64,000 nucleotides of DNA, from positions 862,513 to 926,512 of the forward strand of contig NZ_CP096016.1 in assembly GCF_023650515.1 (NCBI RefSeq), given 5' to 3'. Below, in pieces: positions 18,393 to 45,617 of this stretch (position 1 is the first letter of the stretch; each line of letters begins with the position of its first letter). Both the position numbers and the translations under genes were made by a program. Origin of the DNA: Alkalimarinus coralli (GTDB lineage Bacteria; Pseudomonadota; Gammaproteobacteria; Pseudomonadales; Oleiphilaceae). Below the pieces are notes generated by a model that worked only from the letters and a program-made list of their open reading frames with translations, did not search any database and was not told where the DNA came from.

Positions 18393-19064
18393 ATGAAGAA
18401 ATCGTTACAACTATTAGTAGGGCTATTCGCAAGTTTTGGCGCTATTCAAGCTAGCGCCATACCTGTTTATTTGAACCAAGATAATATATCTGTGCAAGTA
18501 GGTGCTGGCACCACTGCTACAACTTCGAACAATACGTTTTTCGGAGGCAACACCATAGATAAAGTTATTGACGCCCCAAGTGCAGGCGCGGCAGAGATCC
18601 ACAGTCAAGCCTCGCATATCTGGTATTCGGGCGGCGGCTTAGAGTTGCTTTTTGACTTCGGCACTCAATATGATTTGTCTACGTTACATTTTTGGAACTA
18701 CCATGGAGAGTCATACGACGTCGATAAAATTGATTTTACGTTTTTTGATTCCACAAGCACGCAAGTAGGTGCCCTTTCGTTAATGCCAGATCTTGGCTCT
18801 TCACCTAGTATATACGCGCAAGATATAGCACTGGCTGCTCCGCTAAACGTGCAGTATGTGACGGCGTTTTTGTCGGGAACCAATGGCCAGGTGGATTTCC
18901 AGAATATTGGTTTTACCGCAGACTTATCGACGGATCGTTGTCTGACCAACCCCAGCGACCCTATTTGTGATCCAGGTGGACCATCTTCATCAGTACCGGA
19001 GCCGAGCTCGTTAATGCTGTTTGGGCTTGCCGCCCTTGTACTGGGTAGGAGAAGATCAAACTAG
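18393..19064 (+). CDS. PEP-CTERM sorting-domain protein
   Basis: A 223-residue secreted protein: signal peptide about 1-22 (ending ASA), an unrecognised beta-rich domain with a discoidin-like flavour (HIWYSGGGLELLFDFGTQYDLSTLHFWNY), a Cys-containing linker (DRCLTNPSDPICDPGG) and the PEP-CTERM tail VPEPSSLMLFGLAALVLGRRR. The tail is canonical: PEP motif, helix, arginine cluster. It should be exported and processed by an exosortase encoded outside the window. Two terminators follow. Confidence 0.9.
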   Translation: MKKSLQLLVGLFASFGAIQASAIPVYLNQDNISVQVGAGTTATTSNNTFFGGNTIDKVIDAPSAGAAEIHSQASHIWYSGGGLELLFDFGTQYDLSTLHFWNYHGESYDVDKIDFTFFDSTSTQVGALSLMPDLGSSPSIYAQDIALAAPLNVQYVTAFLSGTNGQVDFQNIGFTADLSTDRCLTNPSDPICDPGGPSSSVPEPSSLMLFGLAALVLGRRRSN

Positions 19065-25855: not shown

Positions 25856-27877
25856 TCAATGATAGTTATACTGACTGAGAAACGCCATAAACGCTGCATC
25901 GGGCCTTGAAGGGCTCACCAGGAAGCCTTGAATATATTCACAGCTGCATTGCTGCAAAAACAATCGTTGATCCTGATTTTCGACGCCTTCGGCAATCACT
26001 TTGAGTTTAAGGCTTTGCGCTAACGATATTATCGCGAGGGTAATGGCAGTATCGTTGGTGTCGTGCAACATGTCATCAATGAACGAGCGGTCAATTTTAA
26101 GATTATCAACCGGAAGCTTGCTCAGATACGAAAGTGACGAGTAGCCCGTGCCAAAATCATCAATCGAAACCCTTGAGCCAAGCTGCTTCAGCGCATTGAG
26201 TGTTTGAATGCAGCGCTCCATCTCATTCATTAATGTATTTTCTGTTACTTCAAAACAAATGGATTTTGCGGGCACTTGGTATTGATTTAAATACGCTTTA
26301 ATTTTTTCCAATAGATAATTTTGTCTTAGTATTGCCGGTGATAGATTTACCGCGACGGAGAAGTCGTCATCAAACTGATGGCGAGATTTAGCGATAAACT
26401 GGCATACCGATTCGATGACAAACAGACTTAACGGGAAAATAAGCCCTGTGCTTTCGGCGATAGGGATAAACTCGGCGGGAGAGATTTTTCCAAGCTCCGG
26501 ATGGCTCCATCTTATCAATGCTTCTGCTCCGACTATTTTATCGCTGTTCAAGTCAACAACAGGCTGATACTCAACGTGCAGCTGGTTCTTTTTCAGCGCT
26601 AACCTTAATGCATTGGCCAGTGTATGCTTACGGGCAACAACCGCGTTGATTCTTTCCTCATAAAAATAGTAAGCATTTTTACCTCGCTCTTTAGCCTGGT
26701 ACATTGCGCTGTCCGCAGCTTTCATCAGCTCGACAGATGTGCTGGCATCGTCAGGGTATACCGCGATGCCAATGCTGGCAGATGCAGTGATCACGTTATC
26801 CATGATGTTGAAATCCTGAGCGACGGCTGAAATACACTTTTCGGCGACATTGGCCAAGTCAGTTTTTGAGCTGAAGTCTGTCAGAATAACGACAAATTCA
26901 TCTCCGCCCAGTCGGGCCAGGGTATCTCCCTGCCTAAGCGCATTACCAAGGTTTCGACTCACTTCTATTAATAGAATATCGCCGGCGTTGTGACCTAGAA
27001 AATCGTTCACATCCTTGAAGTTATCGAGATCGATAAACATCAGAGCAACTTTGTTTTCATGCCGACCTTCCTTGGCGATGGCTTGCGTCAGGCGGTCAAG
27101 GCAAAGTGCTCTATTTGGTAGCCTTGTTAGCGAGTCGTAGTTTGCCAGGGTGTGCATTTCCTTGATTGCATTATTCCGCTCAGTCAGTCGTTGTTCCATT
27201 GCTTCGAGCATTTTGTTGAATGAAAGGCTTAAGCTTCCTATCTCATCCTGGCTCTTAACTTGAACGCGGAAATCATAATTCTCTTCACTGCAGACCTGCT
27301 TGGTCGCGGCTTCAAGATCCAGAATTGGCTGCGAGATATATGACTGTAGGCGTTTGGCAAGGAAGTAACTAAAGGCGATAGAGAGCAGGGTAAAGACCAG
27401 CGCCCAATATACAAAAATTCGAACGCTTTGATAAAATGGCAACGTGGATATTTTAAAAACGACCATGCCGAGCTTTTCACCTGAAACGTCGAGCATGGGC
27501 TGAGTCACCCAGAGCCACTGGTTTTCCCATATGCTGCCTGATGCCTGGCAGACGGTTGCATCATCAATTTTTCCTCCCCCTGCATTCACCTGGATTATTT
27601 TTGCGGGGTCAAAGTCACAGACTGCGCTGGTGTGGTCGCTTGAAATCAATACGTCACCGAGTATGCGCTCAAGGTCATCGTGGAAGTTAAGTGCGACGGG
27701 AACCTGACTATAGCTGGCCACCAATTTGGCTTCCTGCGCCATTCCATCAATTAAGCTGCTCTTGTTTTCGTTATAGTATGAGAGTGTTATACCGGCAAAG
27801 CCGAACATAAGCGTAACCGTCGTTACTAGCGTAATGATGAGTGTTAATTTGTTCTTTATCGATAGTGTTCTAAACAT
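25856..27877 (-). CDS. Membrane HAMP-GGDEF-EAL c-di-GMP enzyme (YfiN-like with EAL)
   Basis: 673 residues. TM1 about 9-31, a periplasmic domain about 32-150 of the CHASE8 kind found in YfiN/TpbB (SQVPVALNFHDDLERIL), TM2 about 152-172, HAMP about 173-228, GGDEF about 245-405 with intact LARLGGDEFVV, and EAL about 425-665 with GAEALIRW, ENTLMNE and DDFGTGYSSLSYL motifs. Both catalytic sites look complete, so it could make and break c-di-GMP. It lies 7 bp after the YfiR-like gene, and in the YfiR-YfiN pair the periplasmic YfiR represses the cyclase; the same arrangement is inferred here. Classical YfiN lacks EAL. Confidence 0.9.
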   Translation of the reverse strand: MFRTLSIKNKLTLIITLVTTVTLMFGFAGITLSYYNENKSSLIDGMAQEAKLVASYSQVPVALNFHDDLERILGDVLISSDHTSAVCDFDPAKIIQVNAGGGKIDDATVCQASGSIWENQWLWVTQPMLDVSGEKLGMVVFKISTLPFYQSVRIFVYWALVFTLLSIAFSYFLAKRLQSYISQPILDLEAATKQVCSEENYDFRVQVKSQDEIGSLSLSFNKMLEAMEQRLTERNNAIKEMHTLANYDSLTRLPNRALCLDRLTQAIAKEGRHENKVALMFIDLDNFKDVNDFLGHNAGDILLIEVSRNLGNALRQGDTLARLGGDEFVVILTDFSSKTDLANVAEKCISAVAQDFNIMDNVITASASIGIAVYPDDASTSVELMKAADSAMYQAKERGKNAYYFYEERINAVVARKHTLANALRLALKKNQLHVEYQPVVDLNSDKIVGAEALIRWSHPELGKISPAEFIPIAESTGLIFPLSLFVIESVCQFIAKSRHQFDDDFSVAVNLSPAILRQNYLLEKIKAYLNQYQVPAKSICFEVTENTLMNEMERCIQTLNALKQLGSRVSIDDFGTGYSSLSYLSKLPVDNLKIDRSFIDDMLHDTNDTAITLAIISLAQSLKLKVIAEGVENQDQRLFLQQCSCEYIQGFLVSPSRPDAAFMAFLSQYNYH

Positions 27878-27884
27878 AGCGAGA

Positions 27885-28493
27885 TCACTGTACTATTTTT
27901 GCGTATCGAAAGAGCTGGGTGCTCACTTGAAACCCTGCGCTATCGAGCGTATTTTTGTTGAGCTCAAAGGCAACGTTATCTCCGCTTTCAAAAAAATTAA
28001 TATGTACGCCCATTTTCCCGTAGCCCTTTTCCGAGCTGACGGTTAGCACGCCTGATTCGCCAGCACTTTTCAAAATGGGTTCAAATGACTCGCCAGAAGA
28101 GGGAACGACATAGGCTAGGTCACATTGGCTTAAATCCTCTGAGTTAATATTGATGATGTTCGCCTTTTTGCCCTTTATCACCTTTCCGGTAAAGATGTCC
28201 CTGAACTGCTTGGCCAGCGAGCTTGAGTTGTAGATACAGATATTGAATGTCGTACTGTTATCTCTTCGGTGGCTTTCAGGCCACTTAATCAAGTGGGTAA
28301 AGTTCTTTATCAGCGCCGCTTGAACATTAATCGGGGTTACGTTGCTTTTTGCAAAAGTCCGGTTTTTCACATACGTGCTGTTATTGGCATAGGCGCTTTC
28401 CGTACAGAACGCATAGATGCAACCTATGACCAGTGCTGCAAGAAGTGAGTGCGACACTGCTCTTGGTTTTGCATTTAACGTAAGCGCTTTCAT
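27885..28493 (-). CDS. YfiR-family periplasmic protein (DUF4154)
   Basis: 202 residues with an N-terminal export segment (HSLLAALVIGCIYAFCTESAYA, about 15-36). The mature part has VQAALIKNFTHLIKWPE, TFNICIYNSS, DLAYVVPSS and GVLTVSSEKGYGKMGVHINFFESGDNVAFELNKNTLDSAG, the pattern of YfiR/DUF4154 proteins. YfiR inhibits a partner inner-membrane cyclase from the periplasm. The cyclase gene follows seven bases later on the same strand, and an acyltransferase precedes it by 68 bp. Confidence 0.88.
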   Translation of the reverse strand: MKALTLNAKPRAVSHSLLAALVIGCIYAFCTESAYANNSTYVKNRTFAKSNVTPINVQAALIKNFTHLIKWPESHRRDNSTTFNICIYNSSSLAKQFRDIFTGKVIKGKKANIININSEDLSQCDLAYVVPSSGESFEPILKSAGESGVLTVSSEKGYGKMGVHINFFESGDNVAFELNKNTLDSAGFQVSTQLFRYAKIVQ

Positions 28494-28561
28494 TTTATGG
28501 GTCCAGCCATCTTAACGCTCCCAACCTGGGCATTTGTCTCGGGTGGAAGCGCATGACCCAT

Positions 28562-29323
28562 TCAAGTCACTTGGCTTTCAATGTAGTGAAAAAAACCGTT
28601 CAGTAGTGATGGCATTGCTTGAATATCCTCTTGAATTGATTCTCGGCTAAAGTAGTAAACGGCCCTCTGGCCATGATAGTCGGCCAACTCACTCACTTGG
28701 TGAAACCTAACCCCCAGCATTGATAGGCTTCTTACCAGCCGGGGCTCGGTGGCTACAAAGATTTGCTTTTTTTGACTGGCTAGGAATAGGGCGCCGGCAG
28801 CTAGATAAAGGCTTGGGGCTATGTAAGGAAAGCGGCGTGTTTGCTCAATGTCTTCGTCGCTTACTTTTATACTGTTGGCCAAGCCATCTTTTGATGACTT
28901 CTCGCCAGCCCGGCGCCTGAATTCAGACACGACGGCAACTCTTGATATTTCGCATACTTCGCCGGGGTTTATGGTGTTGGGGTCTACCTGATCGCGATAT
29001 AGGGAATCAGCACAGTGGGTGATGAAGGGGAGAACCAGCTTTTTTTTTGTTTCGGGGAGAGAAATAACCCGAATACACCCCACTTTCTTACCGGATGTTT
29101 TATGTGTCAGCAGGCAATGGCTGGAATAGCGGTCAAACTCATCTCGCTCCAAACCTCGGTGGCTGGGCAGTTTAAAACCGAACTCCTTACAATATACGCC
29201 ATAGCGAATTCGGTAGACCTCCTTTAGGACGTCTGGACTTTCTGCACGCTGAATATCAAAGTACTGCTTAAACCCTTGTATCAGAACGTTATTTGATTCT
29301 TCAATCTGGATCGGTGAATCCAT
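28562..29323 (-). CDS. PEP-CTERM/exosortase system-associated acyltransferase
   Basis: 253 residues with the acyltransferase fold of autoinducer (LuxI-like) and N-acyl amino-acid synthases. Visible motifs: YRIRYGVYCKEFGF, DEFDRYSSHCLLTHKTSGKKVGCIRVI, NPGEVCEISRVAVVSEFRRR and SLSMLGVRFHQVSE. It matches the family defined by co-occurrence with exosortases and PEP-CTERM proteins (TIGR03694 as I recall). Substrate is unknown. It is placed between a TonB receptor gene and a YfiR-cyclase pair, all minus strand, suggesting a shared signalling or envelope role. It is the only exosortase-linked enzyme in the window. Confidence 0.85.
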   Translation of the reverse strand: MDSPIQIEESNNVLIQGFKQYFDIQRAESPDVLKEVYRIRYGVYCKEFGFKLPSHRGLERDEFDRYSSHCLLTHKTSGKKVGCIRVISLPETKKKLVLPFITHCADSLYRDQVDPNTINPGEVCEISRVAVVSEFRRRAGEKSSKDGLANSIKVSDEDIEQTRRFPYIAPSLYLAAGALFLASQKKQIFVATEPRLVRSLSMLGVRFHQVSELADYHGQRAVYYFSRESIQEDIQAMPSLLNGFFHYIESQVT

Positions 29324-29365
29324 GGGATTGTCTCCATGCTCGTTCGGGTCTACGCTTGCATCGTT

Positions 29366-29409
29366 ATTTTAGATTGTTATCTTAGCTATTTTAGATTGTT
29401 ACCTTAGAC
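29366..29409. repeat. 22-bp tandem duplication
   Basis: ATTTTAGATTGTTATCTTAG with CT at its end is repeated immediately with two changes. It lies in the 115-bp gap between the TonB receptor stop and the acyltransferase start. Confidence 0.85.
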
Positions 29410-29438
29410 TGTTTTTGAGTCTGCTTTTCCTCTTGTCT

Positions 29439-31520
29439 TCAGTGTTTATATCGCAGGGTCATCGCAGCATCAAATTCAATGTCTGGAACCCCGTTATAAC
29501 TGTTTGCAAGGGATGGAAGTACGTTATCTCTATCGAATATGTTCCTAATGGCTAGCCCGACTTCCCAGCGCTCCTTAAACGATTTGTTAATAGTGAGGTC
29601 TGTTCGAAAGTAGGCTGGAGCTTCATCTTGCGCGAAAGGGGGAAGGGCCTGATCACCGGTATATGCCATATTGTGAAAGCGATTTGTGACAAACAACTCT
29701 ATCTGTTGTGCAGGCCAGCTATATCCGACGCCTATATTGAAAATGAGTTTAGGAAACACGCTGTTCCATTGATTTGTTTCAGTGTTTTCACTAAAAATAT
29801 AGGAGGCGCTGGTTTCAAGCAGCCAACGGTCTAGTTGCCCCTTTAGGCTGACTTCGGTACCGCTTGACTCACTCTCGCCCGAATTAACATAGCGTGATGT
29901 GAATCCACCCTGATTAAATGGAACCAGAACAATTCGGTCATCCCACTGGTTCTGAAATAGTGTCCACTCCAATTCCCATAGCTCTGCTGTTTTTACTAAC
30001 CCAAGCTCGATGTTTTGCATTACTTCGGGTTGAAGGCTTGTGGAGCCTTGCGCAAAAGACGAGCCTTTAAGTTCAACTGCTGAGGGCGCTCTAAATGCCT
30101 CGCTATAGACCAGTTTAAGTGCAATCTCATCGTCAGGTTGGTAGATCACACCAACGCGGGGGCTGAACTCGTTGCCAAAGGTATCGTAGTGGTCATACCT
30201 ACCACCCCAAATTGCGCTCCATTGTGTTGCTACTTGTGTATTTGCATCTACCGAAAGCCCAATAATTGACTGGTCGGTGCCACTGTAGTCAACCGAATTT
30301 GAGGGTACAACTGCTCCCGTGTTGAGGCTGGTTCGTTTTTGCCTATTGCTGTCTATCCCGGCTTCTTCGTAGCTAGTTTCTAGCGACCAGCGTGTTTTGA
30401 TTGCTTCAACTTCCTGGCGCAGTATTGCAGATACGCCGCCTCGGGTTTCATCATACTCTGTTGCTTCTAGCAGGGTATCGGTGAAGAACGGGATTAGTAC
30501 CTCCTGACTGTGCTCCATTTGCCAGTAATAGAGCTTGGCTTCAAAACCGATATCGTATGCCAACGGCTGTTTATAGCCGATGCGGGCCATGCTCAGACGC
30601 CCGTCATGACCTCCCCGGTCACGATCAAAGGAAGGAAAAGAAGCGTTGCCACCGCCCTGAAAGTCATCGAAGTCGTTACCTGAATAGTATAGGCTGGCGC
30701 TAAACCCTTTATTGTCTTCTGAATTTTGCATCAGGTGCATGACTGCCGTTTGAGAATCCCAATTTAACTCCCGCTCTGCTGAGTGTGTTTGGTTATCAAG
30801 CGGCGATACGTAGTCAAAAGCGCTGTCTTGATCACCTTCCTGAGAAGCCGAAAGTGACAGGCCAAACAGCCAGTCATTGCCAAGAAGGTGGCTGGATTGC
30901 AGGCTCCCGTGGTAGTAGTCGTTTTGCCCGGCTGATAACTGTGACTGCTTCGTTTCGCTGTTCGGTTTCCAGGTTTTATAGGACACTGCCGAGTGGAATG
31001 CGTCACTGCCATAAAGAGTAGAGCTTGGGCCTCTTACCAGCTCAATACGTTCCAGTGTTGATAGCTCAATATTGTCCACCGAAAACACATCGGTGCCAAA
31101 GATAAAGCTATTAATGGGTACGTCGTCCAACAGTGTCGCCTTACCTTTTACCGACCCTGTGCCATAGCCGCGAACCTGGATAGAGTCACCGCCAGTGGGA
31201 ACGGGCAACACCATTACTCCGGGAAGGTGCTGGAAGGCATCGGATGTGCGGCGTGCTCCGCGTTTTTCCCAGTCATCGCGTTTAATAACACTCACGCTGC
31301 TGGGGGTTGTCAGAGTAGACTCCGAGAATCGCGACGCCGATGTGATCTGAACCTTGAGAAGCTCTTCGATATCCATTGACCAAAGGTCTTCTGTATCCAT
31401 CTCATCTGCGTGTGCAAGTGCGACGGACAAGCCGATTAGACAGGTTAAGGTAGTAATATTTCTGTTGATCATAACGAAAACATCACTAAGAATCTCCGGT
31501 AAATGCGTACCATTAATCAA
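29439..31520 (-). CDS. TonB-dependent outer-membrane receptor
   Basis: 693 residues. Plug domain about 60-180 (TTPSSVSVIKRDDWEKRGARRTSDAFQHLPGVMV ... DSIQVRGYGTG ... ERIELVRGPSSTLYGSDAF), then a beta-barrel to the C-terminus, which ends in an aromatic beta-strand (DAAMTLRYKH). The mature start DEMDTEDLWSMDIEELLKVQITSASR is the type I associate with TonB receptors next to YfiR genes. The signal peptide is about residues 17-39, so the real start may be the in-frame ATG at 31472. The ligand is unknown; no TonB box was verified. It heads the minus-strand operon with acyltransferase, YfiR and GGDEF-EAL genes. Confidence 0.88.
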   Translation of the reverse strand: MINGTHLPEILSDVFVMINRNITTLTCLIGLSVALAHADEMDTEDLWSMDIEELLKVQITSASRFSESTLTTPSSVSVIKRDDWEKRGARRTSDAFQHLPGVMVLPVPTGGDSIQVRGYGTGSVKGKATLLDDVPINSFIFGTDVFSVDNIELSTLERIELVRGPSSTLYGSDAFHSAVSYKTWKPNSETKQSQLSAGQNDYYHGSLQSSHLLGNDWLFGLSLSASQEGDQDSAFDYVSPLDNQTHSAERELNWDSQTAVMHLMQNSEDNKGFSASLYYSGNDFDDFQGGGNASFPSFDRDRGGHDGRLSMARIGYKQPLAYDIGFEAKLYYWQMEHSQEVLIPFFTDTLLEATEYDETRGGVSAILRQEVEAIKTRWSLETSYEEAGIDSNRQKRTSLNTGAVVPSNSVDYSGTDQSIIGLSVDANTQVATQWSAIWGGRYDHYDTFGNEFSPRVGVIYQPDDEIALKLVYSEAFRAPSAVELKGSSFAQGSTSLQPEVMQNIELGLVKTAELWELEWTLFQNQWDDRIVLVPFNQGGFTSRYVNSGESESSGTEVSLKGQLDRWLLETSASYIFSENTETNQWNSVFPKLIFNIGVGYSWPAQQIELFVTNRFHNMAYTGDQALPPFAQDEAPAYFRTDLTINKSFKERWEVGLAIRNIFDRDNVLPSLANSYNGVPDIEFDAAMTLRYKH

Positions 31521-32171: not shown

Positions 32172-33185
32172 TTATAAACATCCGCTGTGTGGGGTATTGG
32201 GGTATGCAACCTCGTTCAGGTGCTCCCAGTAGCTGCCATTGGCAACAGCTTGAGTGCCATTTGCACCCGCATTTTTACCGATAATATAAGTTTCCGCTTT
32301 TGGAATACCCGCCGCTTCATAGGCTTCAATATCGGTTGTGGCGTTACCATATGCGCGCAATATTTCGATGCCTTGGGCTTGAAATTCGTTGAGTGCATTG
32401 GCTTTGTACTCTGCGACATTGAACAAGCCGGTTTCATTACTCATGGTTGTTCTTAACGTAAAGTCAGGTACGTTTAAGTAATTGGCCAACCAGTTTCTGG
32501 AGCCTTTGGCATACCAGTATGAACGGCCAGTTACGAAGATGGGGTGGTAGCCTCGCTCGACGTAGTGACGCACTAGCTCTCCTGCTCCGCCGCGGGCATC
32601 TGCTGCTTCAATACCGGTGTAATCGAGGATTTGCTCAAGGTCAGATGCCGTCAGTGTTTCGTCAATATCAAATAAAACCGCCTTAGCACCTTGTTTTATA
32701 GAGGTCACATAAGCCGTTGTTTCTGAACGGTCGCCGCGAACAACCATTTTAACCTGATATTGACCCTCAGAAAGAGGTGGCACAGAAACGTATATCTTGC
32801 CATCGCTGTTAGTCTTATAGCGACCCAGGCTCTGCCAGTCATTCATGCCTGTGCCGTATAAGTAGGCGTTTACGTATTCGAACTCAAGGTCTTTATGAAA
32901 CACCGCGCCGTAGTCAAATTTGCCAACAACCGTTGTGCCTTGGCCTTCTTGCACTATTTGGTCGTGGCCCATGTGGTATGGCGTATCTTTCGCCAACCAC
33001 TTGTTCCAAAACAACCGAAACCCTGTGCGAGAAGGGTAGTCCAACGCTGGTGCGTAGTTAACGGCGTCGTAGTCTGTGCAGATATTGTCTGCGGCAGTTG
33101 CCGTAGCGGGTAACCAGCTTAATGCTGCCATGGCTGAAGCCAGGCCCAGAGATCGAAGAAGATTTGAGTGATGCCTTTTTTTCAT
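32172..33185 (-). CDS. Secreted lipin-like (LNS2) HAD phosphatase
   Basis: 337 residues with a clear Sec signal (ASAMAALSWLPATATAAD). Residues about 85-160 form a beta-sandwich-like domain (GTTVVGKFDYGAVFHKDLEFEYVNAYLYGTGM). Residues about 165-320 are an HAD phosphatase of the LNS2 (lipin/Nir2) type, with the catalytic DIDET at 173-177 (D173, D175), FVTGRSYWYAKGSRNWLANY and AYGNATTDIEAYEAAGIP. Lipins dephosphorylate phosphatidate to diacylglycerol. A secreted bacterial form suggests processing of lipid or host/environmental phosphate esters. The C-terminal Cys (SGCL end) is unexplained. Confidence 0.82.
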   Translation of the reverse strand: MKKRHHSNLLRSLGLASAMAALSWLPATATAADNICTDYDAVNYAPALDYPSRTGFRLFWNKWLAKDTPYHMGHDQIVQEGQGTTVVGKFDYGAVFHKDLEFEYVNAYLYGTGMNDWQSLGRYKTNSDGKIYVSVPPLSEGQYQVKMVVRGDRSETTAYVTSIKQGAKAVLFDIDETLTASDLEQILDYTGIEAADARGGAGELVRHYVERGYHPIFVTGRSYWYAKGSRNWLANYLNVPDFTLRTTMSNETGLFNVAEYKANALNEFQAQGIEILRAYGNATTDIEAYEAAGIPKAETYIIGKNAGANGTQAVANGSYWEHLNEVAYPNTPHSGCL

Positions 33186-43517: not shown

Positions 43518-45617
43518 TTAATACACCGTAAAGTTTCGGCTGGTGCCTGTATAACCCACAATGTTGCCTGACCACGGTTTCTTTCTGTCGCCGTAGTGTC
43601 TGATACGGTAAGTTCCAACGGCCGCATTGGCGGGAATATTCCAGGTTAATATAGCGTGAGAGGTTCCCCAGAAGCCGTCAATACGCTTCCACTGGTATAT
43701 CGTTTGCCAGTCGTTATCGGTGGCTACAACCTCCCAGCTAGCACCATTCCAACGTTGTACTTCCATAAACGTACCCTGCGTGCGCAAGTTGTTCTTGGGA
43801 TGGCCTGACCAGAACTTAACCACTACAGACTGACCCTTTTGATAACTGGCGTTTGCATTCTGCACAACATCACCAATTTGTTTAAAGATAGGGGCCTGAT
43901 CATGTACAACGCCGGTTTGGAAATTAATGGTTTCGCCTGTTAAATCTCTGGGAATGGGCTCAACAGCGGGAAAAGGCACCGGGTTTAAGCCTGGCGCAGG
44001 CGTTTGACCTGCGGGCAACATTGCAGCGGCGAGCTGGTAAAATGACTGCTGGTAGGCTGCCAGGGTCCAAGGGCCAAAATGGGTTGAGCCCCCTTCATAG
44101 TGCTGCATGTCATACTCTTCTTTGGTGGTGACATAACCGCTATATGCATTTGAAAGCCCTGCAACCACGGTGTAATCCAGTTGCTGCCCTAGTACACTCT
44201 CTACGGTACCCATGAGTCGTCTGCCTGACATAATGGTGAACTCGGCGGGCACCGCCAGTATGCCTAATTGACCAATTTTATGCAGGGAAAGAGGCAGTAC
44301 CTCTGGCGACCAAGGATAAGGGGATGTTTTTCCCTGGGCTAGCAATACCGCTTTGGGGGCATGGCATGCCAAATCAGCCTGACTCGGGGCAACAATCATA
44401 CTTCCAATAAACTGGAAGAACGGGTTTGCCTGCGTTGTGCCTTCACTGAACAGATCCGGGCCTCGTCCGTCTTCAGTGCCTGCTGCAAATGACTCGCCCA
44501 ATGCTGCAACACAGGTCGTCTTTTGGCTACCGTCAGTAAAGTCACCGGATACCACAGTGGAAGACATATCAACATAGCGGTGGGAAAACTCGATGCTACC
44601 GGTTAGCTGTTCGCTCGCTGTATTGTAAAGCTCAACGGCTTTTTCGTACTGCCTTTCGCCAATAATTCTGACATTCTCGAAACGGTTGGAGGTGGGGCCA
44701 CGCCCCTCTGAGTCGGGGTTAACATTGGGGGACATATCGCCTGCATTACTGATTGCGAATGCGGCAACGAAATTGTTATTCCCCTGATAGGTAGAGTTCT
44801 TTAGCTCTTTCTCAAACAGGTATGAAGCATGGCCTTTGTTATCTCCACTTAATAGCTTAATGTCTTTACCCATGGCATTGGGGTGAGTTGCAAACCAGCT
44901 GATCATACCAACTTCATTGTTGTTGCCTTGAAGTAGTTTTAATACGGTCATTGGTTTTTCAATAGCAGAGTTATATTGGTTTTTCTCTGCGCTGGGGTTG
45001 TTATTGTAAGCCTCAATCGAGCGATTGTAGCTGGCATTGTCCAGGTCTCCTCGGTTAACCAGAATTCGCCCTGGTTTCAGGTCGTTATGAGCCTTTTCGA
45101 TTGAGGCAACGATGCCGTTGACTTGAGCGTCATAGGCCTGCTGTATAAACCCCAGAATAGTAATGTCATAAAGTGCATAGTGGGATTGCCCACCGGCCGC
45201 TGCGTGGGTATGAGTCGCACTTAAAATGACATTTCTCTCTGTATAGGTGTCACCGTACTTTTCCCCGAGCTTGTTAATGACACCTTGAAACACCGACTGA
45301 AACAGCGCACCTGCATCAGCACTGACAAATACCACGCGCTTATCGGTATTAGGGTCAGCAATCACATAGGCGCGAGACCAGTGTCTAAAGTGAATGCCGG
45401 CACTTTTTTGATCAGGGTTAGCGTAACCCATCAGGCCGACTTCAGCAGCAGGGCCAGTAATATCGTGTATGCCTCGACCAACCAGATAATTGTTCTCAAC
45501 ACTCCAAGCGTTAAGGGCTGGGGAGGACATACTCAGAAGCAGCAGTGCCTTTGGCAACAGCGGGTAGAGGGTTTGTTTAAGTGTCTTTTTTAATCTTATT
45601 TTTATTCTAAAAAACAT
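43518..45617 (-). CDS. Neutral ceramidase, secreted
   Basis: 699 residues. Export segment about 10-36. The N-terminal catalytic domain shows LVGRGIHDITGPAAEVGLMGYANPDQKSAGIHFRHWSRAYVI, the zinc motif ATHTHAAAGG (134-143), SWFATHPNAMG (H245) and the active Ser region NAGDMSPNVN (S296). The C-terminal immunoglobulin-like domain (about 540-699) ends the protein. Length and motifs match neutral ceramidases such as PA0845 (about 670), which split ceramide into sphingosine and fatty acid. Bacterial forms usually act on external lipids. The only evidence for regulation is the twin palindrome in its upstream gap. Confidence 0.9.
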   Translation of the reverse strand: MFFRIKIRLKKTLKQTLYPLLPKALLLLSMSSPALNAWSVENNYLVGRGIHDITGPAAEVGLMGYANPDQKSAGIHFRHWSRAYVIADPNTDKRVVFVSADAGALFQSVFQGVINKLGEKYGDTYTERNVILSATHTHAAAGGQSHYALYDITILGFIQQAYDAQVNGIVASIEKAHNDLKPGRILVNRGDLDNASYNRSIEAYNNNPSAEKNQYNSAIEKPMTVLKLLQGNNNEVGMISWFATHPNAMGKDIKLLSGDNKGHASYLFEKELKNSTYQGNNNFVAAFAISNAGDMSPNVNPDSEGRGPTSNRFENVRIIGERQYEKAVELYNTASEQLTGSIEFSHRYVDMSSTVVSGDFTDGSQKTTCVAALGESFAAGTEDGRGPDLFSEGTTQANPFFQFIGSMIVAPSQADLACHAPKAVLLAQGKTSPYPWSPEVLPLSLHKIGQLGILAVPAEFTIMSGRRLMGTVESVLGQQLDYTVVAGLSNAYSGYVTTKEEYDMQHYEGGSTHFGPWTLAAYQQSFYQLAAAMLPAGQTPAPGLNPVPFPAVEPIPRDLTGETINFQTGVVHDQAPIFKQIGDVVQNANASYQKGQSVVVKFWSGHPKNNLRTQGTFMEVQRWNGASWEVVATDNDWQTIYQWKRIDGFWGTSHAILTWNIPANAAVGTYRIRHYGDRKKPWSGNIVGYTGTSRNFTVY

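Follow-up and report, generated by a model that had tools for sequence, protein, structure and literature searches.

The 64,000-nucleotide stretch of the Alkalimarinus coralli genome analyzed here (the window; G000:C1:862513-926512 in a single-contig genome of 4.83 Mb) carries a cassette of four minus-strand genes, in which a TonB-dependent receptor (TBDR) is followed by a TIGR03694 acyltransferase (ACT), a YfiR-like protein and a HAMP-GGDEF-EAL protein. Judging from domain content and gene neighborhoods, we tentatively read this cassette, at somewhat less than an even chance, as a trans-envelope cyclic di-GMP (c-di-GMP) relay that would come with the synthase of its own ligand. Behind this reading stand the conservation of the gene order throughout the genus genomes examined, its persistence in one genome where the flanks have changed, the presence of the receptor-ACT pair in another family, the agreement between the receptor and ACT trees, and the repeated occurrence of ACTs beside a second type of relay. 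Together, the cassette and the related enzymes beside similar relays suggest a self-made chemical signal of a little-explored kind, and the cassette joins an N-acyl amino-acid synthase and a YfiR-type relay in one small, testable unit.

The four-gene order was found on a single strand in every genus genome examined (5/5; G000-G004), with protein identities to the window copies of 68-80% for the TBDR, 68-85% for the ACT, 54-64% for YfiR and 73-86% for the GGDEF-EAL protein, and the cassette is therefore likely to be a functional unit. In G004 it is whole though neither flank matches the SDR and coiled-coil genes that flank it in the window, and the 7-bp gap ahead of the GGDEF-EAL gene is common to the window, L040, L042 and L043. 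The cassette genes had dN values of 0.09-0.41, with dS saturated and not computable in 11 of 12 comparisons. The initial annotation had called the EAL motifs apparently intact, and an alignment inspected by eye bears this out: the GGDEF signature, the RxxD site and the EAL, DDFGTG, AEGVE and IQGF motifs (the last four of which we take to be the EAL catalytic motifs) are intact in 5/5 orthologues. Upstream of the receptor in G004, and on the same strand, lies a further GGDEF-EAL-like gene (L043 12460-14682) that is 43% identical to that of the window over 433 aa.

On the open reading frame map, the genes have the order, strand and gaps (115, 68 and 7 bp) first annotated (Table 1). The receptor gene is likewise present and in place, except that its annotated start (TTG, 31520) gives way to an ATG at 31472, which is probably the start because two of the five orthologous frames open at that methionine. 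A crude scan of the minus strand of the three gaps returned no promoter- or terminator-like sites, the yield of the same scan being no higher than on shuffled sequence.

Table 1 Genes of the cassette, with window coordinates
Feature	Position	Strand	Basis
TBDR	29439..31472	-	Plug PF07715, 77 bits; barrel PF00593, 140 bits; orthologue alignment for the start
ACT, N-acyl amino-acid synthase / autoinducer synthase fold group	28562..29323	-	TIGR03694, 203 bits; PF13444; FeeM; Autoind_synth
YfiR-like periplasmic protein (DUF4154) with N-terminal signal-like stretch	27885..28493	-	DUF4154, 105 bits; structure match
Inner-membrane HAMP-GGDEF-EAL protein with YfiN-like / YfiR-associated sensor half	25856..27877	-	Pfam; NCBIfam; motifs

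The receptor and the ACT also occur as a pair. In both examined genomes of one genus from another family (G088 and G097), the TBDR and ACT genes are in tandem, with spacings of 74 and 90 bp, and no YfiR or GGDEF/EAL match follows the ACT at these loci. Ahead of the G097 receptor lies a YbjN-domain gene; in G088, inspection by eye shows a gene similar to it in sequence before the initial fragment of the receptor. Among 390 genomes of the order, the receptor profile matched 29 places in 22 genomes, the best outside the genus being G097 at 485 bits and the next reaching 384. Six-frame rechecks of the loci around these matches (which, like those around the DUF4154 and barrel-like matches below, span 1.5 kb per side) placed an ACT at 3 of the 29 (G000, G097 and G088) and a YfiR at five, namely L215 (G000), L217, L236 and L243 (one place of G091) and L234, where the match is weak (40 bits) and on the opposite strand.

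The seven ACT-linked receptors formed one clade in a tree of 29 receptors (support 100/99). A domain-trimmed tree of 55 ACT domains, whose rows included 30 other, hand-picked loci and omitted L086 and three of the five genus paralogues, placed the pair ACTs of G088 and G097 in one starred clade (95/86) with the five cassette ACTs and two genus paralogues. The same grouping, with all five paralogues and the second G088 ACT (L086, which has no TBDR alongside) included, was recovered with weak support (50/88) from 35 full-length sequences. There, a clade of the seven TBDR-linked ACTs alone was rejected (p = 0.0001), L086 nesting among them; the seven plus L086 as a clade were not rejected (p = 0.188). 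Since the receptor and ACT trees each unite the pairs, joint inheritance or joint transfer of TBDR and ACT is the simplest reading.

The exact four-gene order, a search for which had been proposed with the initial annotation, is kept in the five genus genomes and was found nowhere outside the genus in the genomes and loci searched. Among 97 relative genomes, TIGR03694 was over its cut-off in 30 and DUF4154 in 43, and by coordinates compared by eye the two were co-located in the five genus genomes and in none of the 92 other relatives. Six-frame scans of 110 ACT loci (101 non-genus, 4 cassette and 5 genus-paralogue loci; three further over-cut-off ACT places, G062:C283, G081:C17 and G008:C108, lie outside this set) found a YfiR within 5 kb of the ACT solely at the four cassette loci and at 0/101 non-genus loci. 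Within these genomes and loci, we reject a YfiR-ACT linkage beyond the genus. Among the literature matches listed, whose titles and abstract openings covered few subscription journals, there was no TIGR03694 or N-acyl amino-acid synthase operon with TBDR, YfiR or GGDEF-EAL genes.

The link between ACT and c-di-GMP that the initial annotation had drawn is met again outside the genus, where some ACTs of the family adjoin c-di-GMP enzymes. Within 5 kb of the ACT, 12 of the 101 non-genus loci, from 12 genomes and 9 family codes (f36 twice, f64, f72 three times, f88, f98, f107, f112, f203 and f210), carry a binding-protein-like gene of ~150 aa and a barrel-like gene of ~400 aa, which we call module B and which is joined by a GGDEF/EAL gene in 10 of the 12. 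In L178, the ~150-aa protein scored 24.3 bits against PBP_like_2, short of the cut-off of 27. The ~400-aa protein looks like an outer-membrane barrel; it has a C-terminal F in 10/10 aligned copies and no Pfam match in the L178 or L191 copies scanned. The enzyme of the module was a dCache_3-PAS-GGDEF-EAL protein in all three scanned copies, with two open frames in L089.

With a profile (A6) that was built from ACT-linked rows, and whose top ranks therefore favor such rows, 32 of 369 class genomes showed the barrel-like gene, at 38 places in all; TIGR03694 was present in 47 of the 369 at E ≤ 1e-28. Thirty of the 38 barrel-like places were examined as loci; an ACT lay in the short flanks of 9 and in 3 more of the longer loci (L191, L199 and L089), so module B also occurs without an ACT nearby. 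On the 55-row tree the module B ACTs required 5 label changes, at least 3 of them forced by starred branches, and their union in one clade was rejected (p = 1e-4). These label changes indicate that the coupling was gained or lost more than once, the counts being blind to which. With the genus loci counted in, the 647 kb searched within 2.5 kb of an ACT held 19 GGDEF/EAL genes, and the 1315 kb at 2.5-10 kb held 8, of which one lay closer than 5 kb and seven farther out. Recurrence beside a second relay type carries the idea of a self-ligand relay beyond a single-genus curiosity.

The ACT scored 203.4 bits against TIGR03694 (curated cut-off 111.95) and exceeded the Pfam cut-offs for PF13444, FeeM and Autoind_synth (27.9 vs 24 bits for the last), which upholds its initial placement in the fold group of autoinducer and N-acyl amino-acid synthases. 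Residues R40, D61, D64, R85, E125 and R128, which the fold group retains, are invariant in 10/10 aligned relatives. Identity as a LuxI-type acyl-homoserine lactone (AHL) synthase was rejected (29 vs 292 and 23 vs 250 bits against the NCBIfam cut-offs), the matches to solved AHL synthases being weak and local, and so was an OlsB-type (ornithine lipid) identity (23.5 vs 350 bits). The predicted ACT structure was too poor for use (mean pLDDT 38).

As for the product, two Thalassotalea loci carry ACTs 37% identical to that of the window. At one of them, L050 of Thalassotalea sp. PP2-459, exosortase-A-associated ligase and decarboxylase genes lie ahead of the ACT, and a ThiF gene begins 8 bp behind it, with a nitroreductase-family gene next. 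A cluster for thalassotalic acids, which are N-acyl dehydrotyrosines, has been described in this strain (PMC12479983), and the L050 ACT looks to sit in it, the match being by ThiF and nitroreductase families and not by locus tags. With a relative in an apparent thalassotalic-acid cluster, the window ACT probably makes an N-acyl aromatic amino acid. In its family scores and its identity to the L050 enzyme it resembles the known N-acyl amino-acid synthases (those of the thalassotalic-acid cluster, Nas354 and FeeM); it differs from the thalassotalic-acid cluster in having no adjoining ThiF or nitroreductase genes and envelope c-di-GMP genes in their place. Nas354, which is linked to a PilZ domain, makes N-acyltyrosine and needs Glu103 for activity, and the role of such synthases for their producers is described as not clear (PMC4897644). 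At another locus (L077 9319-12099) the ACT precedes a 670-aa protein that combines ThiF and nitroreductase-like portions in a single chain; it may be a fusion of two tailoring enzymes such as those of the thalassotalic-acid cluster.

A second ACT, 41-43% identical to the first, is present in 5/5 genus genomes (L038 15068-15838, at G000:C1:2541118, and L044-L047). At L044 it is flanked on one side by Smr and DUF294 genes, and on the other by methionine-salvage-like Aldolase_II and HAD genes, beyond which lie type VI secretion genes. The A. coralli genome has one exosortase, ~850 kb from the cassette ACT, and at this distance we reject an exosortase linkage for the window copy; exosortase genes near ACT loci gave few matches with an insensitive single-seed profile. 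PEP-CTERM matches over cut-off number 13, two of them inside the window (18393-19064, 21.8 vs 16 bits, and about 3563).

The YfiR-like protein matched DUF4154 at 104.9 bits (cut-off 24.9). A sequence search of the PDB at 0.01 gave no match; a fold search with the predicted model (mean pLDDT 74) did, to Pseudomonas aeruginosa YfiR (4yn9/4yn7, TM ~0.8 by target) and, more weakly, to 3lft, an ABC-type protein solved with L-Trp. Against the YfiR equivalog NF053586 the protein scored 28.9 bits, below the cut-off of 85, and no YfiB is found among the cassette genes. In the enzyme, HAMP, GGDEF and EAL scored 31, 168 and 262 bits, and residues 12-396 matched DgcN/YfiN (NF007423) at 223 bits (cut-off 325). 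Three further families, NF053590 (TOL_0244), NF053591 (TOL_0243) and NF053592 (sensor histidine kinase, YfiR-like protein-associated), appear from their model names to form one module. The cassette receptor, YfiR and sensor half (residues 6-228) matched them at 93, 74 and 92 bits, all under the curated cut-offs of 645, 125 and 194 and thus outside the families as curated; the cassette also differs from them in its output, GGDEF-EAL and not a kinase, and in the presence of the ACT.

The YfiR half of the cassette resembles TBDR-YfiR-sensor modules that carry no ACT, at L217 (sensor with GGDEF), L104 and L236 (receptor broken by stops, two broken frames). At 27 of 29 further DUF4154 loci a sensor or GGDEF-EAL profile match lay within 1.5 kb, in some cases on the opposite strand; a receptor profile match was present at 1 of the 29. 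The second YfiR of the A. coralli genome lies 5 bp ahead of a CHASE8-HAMP-HisKA kinase (L039 18256-20000), in a 20-kb stretch without a match to the window TBDR. We know of no ligand for most YfiR-type relays.

Taken as a self-ligand relay, the cassette would work as follows. The ACT would acylate an amino acid, most likely an aromatic one, with a long-chain acyl group; once outside the cell, the product would be captured by the TBDR or taken back in through it and then reach YfiR; and YfiR, ligand-bound or held by the receptor, would alter its grip on the sensor. The resulting shift in the balance of c-di-GMP synthesis and breakdown would in turn adjust attachment or the production of matrix. 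In P. aeruginosa, L-Trp occupies the site of YfiR that also binds YfiB (PMC4887326), and an acylated aromatic amino acid might sit in a pocket of this type. That a TonB receptor would here gate a self-made quorum signal strikes us as rather doubtful.

Several points weigh against a self-ligand relay. The modules at L217, L236 and L104 indicate that the relay can do without the ACT, and the receptor-ACT pairs followed by neither YfiR nor GGDEF genes that the ACT can do without this relay. At most non-genus ACT loci (84/101), GGDEF/EAL, module B and TBDR matches are all absent within 5 kb; the 17 others comprise the 12 with module B, two with a TBDR (L084 and L213) and three with a lone GGDEF/EAL gene (L053, L057 and L194). 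The affinity reported for YfiR and L-Trp lies only in the ten-millimolar range (PMC4887326), and sequence does not tell which way the control runs.

As the main rival we regard a reading in which the cassette senses a hydrophobic nutrient with the aid of a surfactant. It draws on TOL_0244, the TBDR that gives its name to a receptor family distantly like the window TBDR; TOL_0244 is sevenfold up on n-C28 in Thalassolituus, and its similarity to OmpS, an alkane receptor, has been pointed out (PMC6304351). The ACT would then make an N-acyl amino-acid surfactant aiding the uptake or sensing of, for example, alkanes, its acyl product being a tool and not a signal, while the TBDR would take up or detect the nutrient and YfiR with the GGDEF-EAL protein would set biofilm formation on the oil surface. 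N-acyltyrosines are indeed surfactants (PMC4897644). However, no alkane hydroxylase could be named among the five FA_desaturase-family genes of the genome, three of which had no NCBIfam match at 1e-10 and two a weak match to a desaturase model, and the module B relays beside ACTs have a different outer-membrane-like protein. We judge this explanation unlikely, though a serious contender.

Still less likely, in our view, is that control runs the other way, with c-di-GMP or the relay controlling the ACT, whose product would be a matrix or envelope lipid of surface growth, and with co-location reflecting co-regulation. The authors who described a fusion of an N-acyl amino-acid synthase to PilZ proposed c-di-GMP control of such enzymes (PMC4897644), and TIGR03694 is named for exosortase systems, of which this genome has the components counted above. 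The window ACT, by contrast, has no PilZ match in Pfam, and its gene lies between those of receptor and YfiR, while in another family the receptor is its sole partner, a placement needless for an output gene. Finally, chance insertion of an ACT into a TBDR-YfiR-sensor operon of the genus ancestor, where it was kept for an unrelated reason, would fit the ACT-free modules, the confinement of the exact order to one genus within the genomes searched and the many ACT loci without such neighbors, but is very unlikely given the TBDR-ACT pair in a second family with its agreeing trees, the repeated coupling of ACTs to other c-di-GMP relays and the block kept in G004 while its flanks changed.

Among known systems, the nearest working analogue of the proposed self-ligand relay is ScrABC of Vibrio parahaemolyticus, in which ScrA makes the S-signal, periplasmic ScrB binds it, and ScrC is turned from cyclase to phosphodiesterase (PMC11315295). 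In layout, the cassette shares with it the combination of a synthase, a periplasmic protein and an inner-membrane GGDEF-EAL protein in one operon. ScrA, however, is an aminotransferase and not a GNAT acyltransferase, ScrB is a periplasmic binding protein, and no TBDR is described in the available portion of that account (PMC11315295). The cassette is like YfiBNR of P. aeruginosa in its YfiR fold and its YfiN-like sensor with HAMP and GGDEF (PMC4655355, PMC4887326). It differs in the sub-cut-off equivalog score of its YfiR, in having a TBDR in place of the lipoprotein YfiB, in the added EAL domain and in the internal ACT.

A further parallel is RpfF/RpfR; RpfF is a crotonase-type enzyme, unlike the window ACT. 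There, too, the gene for an acyl-signal (BDSF) synthase adjoins that for a GGDEF-EAL protein, RpfR, in which the signal sets off the phosphodiesterase; RpfR senses through a PAS domain, and the system described includes neither a TBDR nor a YfiR (PMC6361424).

Elsewhere in the window, 12 kb off the cassette, lies a gene for a neutral/alkaline ceramidase (43518-45617; 613 bits), an amide hydrolase acting on acylated lipids. Closer to it, at 32172-33185, is encoded a protein with PITM/LNS2-like domains, which are known mainly from eukaryotic phosphatidylinositol-transfer proteins.

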